The notes beneath the pieces are model-generated. The model was not told the DNA's origin. It saw only the letters and a list, made by a program, of their open reading frames with translations, and made no database searches. Shown in pieces: positions 49,073 to 50,585 of a DNA stretch of 64,000 nt; the stretch's first letter is position 1, and the number at the start of each line of letters is the position of its first letter. The position numbers and the translations under genes were made by a program. This DNA is from an uncultured Eubacteriales bacterium (GTDB lineage: Bacteria; Bacillota; Clostridia; Lachnospirales; Lachnospiraceae). The stretch is from positions 62,001 through 126,000 of the forward strand of contig CASFBK010000001.1 in the NCBI GenBank assembly GCA_949292785.1. Reading direction: 5' to 3'.

Positions 49073-49101
49073 TTGACGATAGCCGTAAGGTATGATAAAG
49101 T
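49073..49101 (+). promoter_or_regulatory. Promoter of the infC-rpmI-rplT unit
   Basis: TTGACG (49073-49078) and TAAAGT (49096-49101) are separated by 17 bases. Transcription from here gives a leader of about 160 bases before the infC start. Confidence 0.65.
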
Positions 49102-49132
49102 AATGAAGTTGTAAGTAGAAAACAAAGTAGAG

Positions 49133-49239
49133 TATCCACTCTCACCTTAGCACAAATGCGTGACTAATGGTTCAATATTCGTTAAAAGATACGATAAGTA
49201 TTTGGAATATAAGTGGATAGTCTGCCTATCCACTTTTTT
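49133..49239 (+). promoter_or_regulatory. L20-type attenuator leader with alternative helices
   Basis: AAGTGGATAG (49211-49220) pairs with CTATCCACTT (49226-49235), followed by TTTT, an intrinsic terminator upstream of infC. An upstream TATCCACT (49133-49140) has the same sequence as the terminator right arm and can pair with AGTGGATA, forming an antiterminator. This arrangement matches the L20-controlled leader of Bacillus infC-rpmI-rplT, where excess L20 favours termination. Protein binding is inferred from gene context. Confidence 0.78.
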
Positions 49240-49251
49240 ATATTAATTTTT

Positions 49252-49268
49252 GGAGGTGCACAACCATT
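49252..49268 (+). promoter_or_regulatory. infC Shine-Dalgarno and AUU start
   Basis: GGAGGTG (49252-49258) is followed at 7 bases by ATT (49266-49268), in frame with infC. The first ATG, at 49278, is 19 bases from the Shine-Dalgarno sequence, too far. AUU initiation is the known self-regulating start of IF3 genes. Confidence 0.78.
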
Positions 49269-49772
49269 AGCGAGTTAATGATTAATGAACAAATCAAAGA
49301 TAAGGAAGTTCGTTTGATTGGCGAAAACGGAGATCAGCTGGGTGTTATGTCTGTAAGAGAAGCATTAAAGCTTGCCCAGGAAGCAGATCTTGATTTAGTA
49401 AAAATCGCCCCAACTGCAAAGCCGCCGGTATGTAAGATTATCGATTACGGCAAATACAAATACGAGCTTGTCAGAAAAGAAAAAGAAGCCAAGAAGAAAC
49501 AGAAAACTGTTGAGGTAAAGGAAATCCGTTTATCACCAAACATTGAAACCAATGATTTGAATACAAAAATTAATGCAACAAGAAAGTTTATTGCCAAGGG
49601 TAATAAGGTGAAGATTACATTACGTTTCCGCGGAAGAGAGATGGCTCACATGCAAAGCAGTAAGCATATTCTGGATGAATTCGCAGAAACACTCTCAGAT
49701 GTTGCAGTAGTGGAAAAGGCACCTAAATTAGAAGGCCGCAGTATCAGTCTGGTGCTGGCGGAAAAGAAATAA
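49266..49772 (+). CDS. infC: Translation initiation factor IF-3, AUU start
   Basis: IF-3 checks initiator tRNA and start codon at the P site and prevents subunit joining. The protein has 168 residues from ATT 49266, reading (M)[18 protein letters not shown], an N-terminus like those of other clostridial IF-3 proteins. The Shine-Dalgarno sequence GGAGGTG fits this start and not the ATG at 49278. The N-domain, the Lys-rich linker ([11 protein letters not shown]) and the C-domain ([28 protein letters not shown]) are all present. A rare start lets IF-3 limit its own synthesis. The leader also carries an L20-type attenuator. rpmI follows after 23 bases. Confidence 0.93.
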
Positions 49773-49795: not shown

Positions 49796-49993
49796 ATGCC
49801 AAAAATTAAAACAAGCAGAGCAGCAGCAAAACGTTTCAAAGTGACAGGTACAGGAAAGTTAAAGAGAAATAAAGCTTATAAGAGACATATCTTAACAAAG
49901 AAATCTACAAAGACCAAGAGAAATTTAAGAAAAGCAGCAATGACAGATGCAACTAATGTTAAGAATATGAAAAAGATTTTACCATATTTGTAA
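49796..49993 (+). CDS. rpmI: Ribosomal protein L35
   Basis: This 65-residue, very basic 50S protein begins [20 protein letters not shown] and contains [17 protein letters not shown], both hallmarks of bL35. ATG 49796 follows AAGGAGGAAAC. The infC-rpmI-rplT order is the universal one, and translation of all three is expected to be balanced by the upstream leader. Confidence 0.98.
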
Positions 49994-50019: not shown

Positions 50020-50376
50020 ATGGCAAGAATTAAAGGCGGATTAAACGCTAAGAAAAGACATAATAGAACATTAAAATTAGCAAAAGGATACAGAGGAGCA
50101 CGCTCCAAACAGTATAGAGTAGCTAAACAGTCTGTCATGAGAGCATTAACCAGTTCTTATGCAGGTAGAAAAGAAAGAAAAAGACAGTTCAGACAGTTAT
50201 GGATTGCACGTATCAACGCTGCAGCAAGAATCAATGGTATTTCTTACAGCCAGTTCATGCATGGATTAAAATTAGCTGGTGTAGAAGTAAACCGTAAAAT
50301 GTTAGCTGAAATGGCTGTAAATGATGCAGAAGGATTCGCAACATTAGCTGAATTAGCAAAATCTAAAGTGGCTTAA
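50020..50376 (+). CDS. rplT: Ribosomal protein L20
   Basis: This 118-residue basic protein begins [20 protein letters not shown] and includes [16 protein letters not shown] and [16 protein letters not shown], the bL20 signatures. It binds 23S rRNA early in assembly. In Firmicutes L20 also binds the infC leader and represses the operon. ATG 50020 follows AAGGAGGAATAG. The stop lies 19 bases before a weak A/T hairpin that may end the transcript. Confidence 0.98.
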
Positions 50377-50480: not shown

Positions 50481-50552
50481 GGCTCGTTGGTCAAGCGGTT
50501 AAGACGCCGCCCTCTCACGGCGGAAACAGGGGTTCGATTCCCCTACGAGCTG
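50481..50552 (+). tRNA. tRNA-Glu (anticodon CTC)
   Basis: This 72-base cloverleaf has a 7-bp acceptor (GGCTCGT with ACGAGCT, first pair G-U), a D arm with GGTCAAGCGGTTAAGAC, an anticodon stem CCGCC/GGCGG with loop CTCTCAC (anticodon CTC, reading GAG), and a T arm AGGGG-TTCGATT-CCCCT. The discriminator is G and the next bases are CTA, so CCA is not encoded and must be added by the nucleotidyltransferase. A strong terminator follows 34 bases downstream, making a single-gene unit. Confidence 0.95.
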
Positions 50553-50585
50553 CTAGCTATAATAGAATAGCCCAACCCGTAAAAG

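Follow-up and report, generated by a model that had tools for sequence, protein, structure and literature searches.

The infC leader of an uncultured Eubacteriales bacterium (Lachnospiraceae) is, in all probability, an ordinary L20-type attenuation leader, and the 9-nt complement between this leader and the infC start region is most likely incidental. The leader lies in a window of 64,000 nucleotides, i.e., the whole stretch of DNA that was analysed. The leader arm of the complement is not free sequence; it is one arm of the hairpin P2, which, judging from the substitutions in 129 leaders, is maintained by compensatory change. The complement seems to have arisen as a side effect of constraints that act on the two sequences separately.

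The infC locus and its leader

The features of the locus are as follows.

49073..49101, plus strand: probable promoter TTGACG - 17 nt - TAAAGT, with TG ahead of the second hexamer (consensus scan)
49119..49247, plus strand: whole match to L20_leader (RF00558), covering model positions 1-127 of 127 at a score under the gathering threshold
49127..49143, plus strand: hairpin P1 (fold, Rfam alignment), with UAUCCACU (49133-49140) serving as the antiterminator half
49144..49171, plus strand: hairpin P2 (ACCUUAGCAC x GUG-A-CUAA-U-GGU; folds, covariation), with the segment that the first-pass annotation paired with the start as its 3' arm
49211..49235, plus strand: intrinsic terminator hairpin followed by a T-rich tail (fold, terminator scan); the antiterminator has its partner at 49212-49219 in the left arm
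49252..49258, plus strand: Shine-Dalgarno sequence GGAGGTG (sequence)
49262..49270, plus strand: start region AACCATTAG, the complement of 49164-49172, with the AUU start at 49266-49268
49266..49772, plus strand: infC, translation initiation factor IF-3, AUU start (NCBIfam TIGR00168, E 8.6e-67)
49796..49993, plus strand: rpmI, ribosomal protein L35 (NCBIfam TIGR00001, E 5.3e-26)
50020..50376, plus strand: rplT, ribosomal protein L20, presumably the regulator (NCBIfam TIGR01032, E 4.1e-46)

The promoter is a weak signal when taken alone, the consensus scan having found two promoter-like sites on both strands against a mean of 1.9 in shuffles; by eye, a comparable arrangement stands upstream of infC in relatives. 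A tRNA-Glu gene (anticodon CTC, 50481-50553) is located approximately 100 nt downstream of rplT.

For comparison, infC loci were taken from the genus (28 of its 29 genomes) and from other members of the family, for which 294 of 298 searched genomes gave a match; of 30 family loci retrieved, 28 were new to the sample. The 80 best of 579 titled contigs and the RF00558 loci of the genus search completed the set. Loci beyond the genus represent the highest IF3 similarities, not a random sample, and the set referred to as outside the genus (L043-L150) may include a few genus members. The 149 leaders collapse to 131 distinct ones. The CTCACC motif at the opening of P2 is present in 129 of these; L082 (shortened) and L111 (variant motif) were left out. 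A 9-nt register could be fitted to 125 leaders, leaving aside L109, L133, L137 and L145, in which P2 folds without a paired ACC; this set retains rows that are probably misregistered, namely L083 (an N), L088, L122, L123 and L143 (odd P2 folds) and L146 (start register). In four genus leaders (L004, L005, L006, L008) the distance from terminator to start exceeds that of the window by approximately 30-45 nt, and some of them appear, by eye, to contain an inverted repeat there. In L007 the distance from CTCACC to the start is 369 nt, and the intervening sequence is GC-rich and inverted-repeat-like, as from an inserted repeat element.

Translation signals are well conserved in this sample. GGAGG or GGGGG stands ahead of the infC start in 130 of 131 leaders, and the start codon is ATT in 123 of 129; L046 has ATA and L087, L127 and L132 have ATC, which are other rare start codons, and the remaining two are L083, with its N at the start, and L146, which is in the wrong register. 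The infC start is also given as ATT in B. subtilis (PMC6097659) and as AUA in S. aureus, in an account of infC start codons and IF3 autocontrol (PMC13009471). AUU belongs to the rare start codons that are usual for infC and by which IF3 probably limits its own translation, and in this respect the leaders resemble the known rare-start systems, with nothing unusual.

The RF00558 match covers the full model length with 48.9 bits (E 1.8e-8 for the genome), below the gathering score of 58.7, and therefore the gathering-score scan of the window left L20_leader unreported. The comparison with the Rfam L20 leader model that the first-pass annotation had called for gives the full length and falls short in score. 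At E <= 0.001, RF00558 is matched in 14 of 29 genomes of the genus (none above the gathering score), 133 of 298 of the family (one above) and 174 of 195 of the class (37 above); the family and class searches employed stricter filters, with which weak matches are lost (G014 is present in the genus search and absent from the family search). Among other RNA candidates, a minus-strand match to the C0465 sRNA was dismissed as chance (E 0.11; 21.5 bits, cut-off 40). A 23S rRNA comparison for P2 gave no 23S match in the leader's own genome, and a 16-nt 23S motif had no match in G005; the comparison was dropped.

The terminator comprises 10 pairs and a T-rich tail, and a single one was found where 50 shuffles gave a mean of 0.1. 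As the first-pass annotation had noted, its left arm can alternatively pair with the P1 segment; the coordinates hold, and TATCCACT at 49133-49140 is complementary to AGTGGATA at 49212-49219 over 8 nt. A loose scan, in which some hairpins are wrongly chosen, places a terminator-like hairpin before infC in 129/129 leaders, and at least 7 contiguous pairs (G-U allowed) between P1 segment and terminator left arm are present in 113 of them. The complement is longer with a leader's own P1 than with a swapped one (7.31 vs 6.87, 0/30 swaps reaching the own value). It is not shown in the other 16 leaders, for some of which, such as L007, L009 and L029, the scan probably picked the wrong hairpin.

These elements place the leader next to RF00558, the B. 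subtilis infC leader, which likewise stands before infC-rpmI-rplT and has a P1 segment complementary to the terminator, P2 and the terminator over the full model length; the difference is that the leader of the window scores under the gathering cut-off. In B. subtilis, a rho-independent terminator is reported to be stabilised by L20 binding (PMC6097659; review PMC10931766). By analogy, when little L20 is free, the P1 segment would pair with the left arm of the terminator and RNA polymerase would read through; excess L20 would bind the leader, the antiterminator would not be held, the terminator would form, and transcription would stop. P2, CUAAUGGU included, is predicted to be folded in both states. 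The alternative pairings can be read from the sequence itself; the steps that depend on L20 are inferred by analogy with B. subtilis. What stands of the L20-type terminator/antiterminator reading proposed in the first-pass annotation is accordingly its anatomy, i.e., the full-length Rfam match below cut-off, the operon and the widespread P1-terminator complement; the response to L20 is carried over from B. subtilis.

Predicted folds are consistent with a switch of this kind. In 49105-49300, the terminator pairs have probabilities of 0.48-0.87 and the antiterminator pairs of 0.11-0.13; the free fold (-40.4 kcal/mol) contains P2 and the terminator, and forcing the antiterminator together with P2 gives -39.9 kcal/mol. 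The whole stretch folds modestly better than shuffles (z -1.81).

Hairpin P2 and the complement to the start region

CTAATGGTT (49164-49172) is perfectly complementary to the start region (49262-49270), in which the IF-3 frame begins with the ATT at 49266, so that the letters of the 9-nt complement are as the first-pass annotation gave them. Between the leader (49119-49250) and the start region (49251-49285), a Watson-Crick match of at least 9 nt arises in 32 of 2000 dinucleotide-shuffled leaders (1.6%); by chance, the complement is unusual but not extreme. The same leader segment is the P2 3' arm plus one base, with the 5' arm ACCTTAG at 49144-49150.

P2 retains 94.7% of pair cells in the 129 leaders. 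Two-sided changes are present at 7 of its 10 pairs, namely pairs 4 to 10 (in 55, 27, 28, 18, 21, 42 and 4 leaders, respectively); pairs 1 to 3 have none. These counts are leaders and not independent events. The pairs were taken from minimum-energy folds of each P2 alone, and hence the counts lean towards paired cells; in a check free of this bias, P2 arms bind their own partner with -4.7 kcal/mol and swapped partners with -3.21 kcal/mol, none of 200 swaps reaching the own value.

Pairing of the P2 3' arm with the start region behaves differently. Across the 125 leaders, 6.232 of 9 pairs form with a leader's own start region and 6.242 with swapped ones (sd 0.038; 1297/2000 swaps reach the own value), and the 94 distinct arm-start combinations give 5.734 vs 5.772 (1609/2000). 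In total, 69.3% of cells pair, with standard two-sided changes in 7 of 1124 cells, across 4 of the 9 pairs. The covariation of 49164-49172 with 49262-49270, set beforehand as the check on the proposed pairing, is thus missing among these leaders. Within the genus, 20 of 27 leaders have 9/9 pairs, 5 have 8 and 2 have 7 (G-U allowed); outside the genus set, 9/9 pairs occur in 2 of 98 leaders. Even the genus contains unrepaired breaks, in that the position of U49168 is C in 4/27 leaders and the base at -1 is A in 5/27. As U49168 faces the A of the start codon, the change to C cannot be repaired without losing AUU.

A wider comparison, of the longest exact complement between any leader segment and the start, gives 5.845 own vs 5.605 swapped in all 129 leaders (2/1000 reach), 7.741 vs 7.522 in the genus only (49/1000, borderline) and 5.343 vs 5.353 outside the genus set (581/1000). 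Since the effect disappears outside the genus set, the excess in all 129 leaders is read as relatedness, and start pairing with some other leader segment in relatives was likewise dropped. The energy of the arm-to-start duplex is also borderline (-3.6 own vs -3.43 swapped, 11/200 reach); this result and that for the genus are read as relatedness, yet the genus may have an effect of its own. In the 30 best-scoring loci of the class, CTAATGG occurs in no leader, ACCATTAG in one start region and both together in none; the longest complements between leader and start span 4 to 8 nt. With no covariation in relatives and the motif pair absent from these loci, a start-occluding pairing as a conserved second layer was abandoned.

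Folding energetics point the same way. The start pairing has a probability of 0.0019-0.0025 per pair in 49105-49300, and its middle pair 0.0008 to 0.0153 in four other folding windows, where P2 reaches 0.73-0.99; forcing the start pairing costs stability (-36.8 kcal/mol), and in these folds, computed without pseudoknots, it is not competitive with local structure. Start pairing and antiterminator together would form a pseudoknot, and therefore their combination lies beyond scoring by these folds.

The complement is most likely incidental because the two sequences that produce it, ACC-UUAG in the P2 5' arm and ACC-AUUAG at the start, appear each to have a reason of their own.

Alternative readings of the start region and the terminator

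The first-pass annotation had read the complement as a second control layer acting by start occlusion. Such a two-layer switch, in which the P2 3' arm of the read-through mRNA leaves its hairpin, pairs with the AUU region and lowers IF3 translation, is very improbable. It would account for a perfect complement that shuffling yields in 1.6% of cases, for the high pairing in the genus with its borderline own-vs-swapped result, and for the bulged U49168, which is unpaired in P2 and would pair with the A of AUU. Translation control by 5' sequences is not foreign to infC, given that in B. subtilis, when RNase Y does not cleave, sequences near the 5' end reportedly inhibit translation of infC (review PMC3997798); this is a precedent for 5' sequences reducing infC translation, although the statement in the review leaves the elements unnamed and does not tie them to the leader segment in question. 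Against this reading stand the lack of association between arm and start in 125 leaders, the uncompensated breaks in the genus, pairing probabilities far below those of P2 and the class leaders without the motif pair. In the open-access papers surveyed, as judged by titles and the openings of abstracts, no account of leader-to-start pairing in infC was found. If confined to the genus, a refolding of the read-through infC mRNA, in which the P2 3' arm and the bulged U49168 pair across AUU and tune both transcription and IF3 translation, is equally a long shot; if true, the start pairing would couple L20 supply to IF3 synthesis in one leader.

Least probable of all is a start region whose letters are retained as a mimic of the P2 5' arm (ACC-UUAG), so that L20 contacts the initiation site in a manner loosely like that of the rpmI pseudoknot in E. 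coli. The start motif does resemble ACCTTAG, and in E. coli L20 is reported to repress translation via a long-range pseudoknot (PMC10931766); that system shares with the leader of the window the protein, the operon genes and a long-range pairing. Unlike the leader of the window, the E. coli pseudoknot, as described there, acts on the ribosomal protein genes and not on infC, and by translation. The letters from -3 to -1 speak against imitation, being ACC in 49, ACA in 31, ACT in 14 and others in 31 of 125 leaders; the start region is unassociated with P2 in a comparison that covers the 3' arm, and the first two codons, AUU being the start, account for AUU-AGC.

It is also very unlikely that the terminator acts without any L20 response in the genus. 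The Rfam score under the cut-off and an L20 binding presumed from anatomy would allow such a reading; the covariation of P2 and the widespread P1-terminator complement argue against it, as they are expected of a switch that is kept.

Consequences for infC leaders of the family

Within the preferred reading of an ordinary L20-type attenuation leader, the outcome does away with the second control layer that had been proposed and suggests why the 9-nt complement exists. For the family, the curated Rfam cut-off of L20_leader leaves an annotation gap at the level of Lachnospiraceae: since only one of 298 genomes reaches it while nearly all of the distinct leaders (129/131) carry the motif that opens P2, annotation by the curated cut-off will miss the L20_leader of this family.
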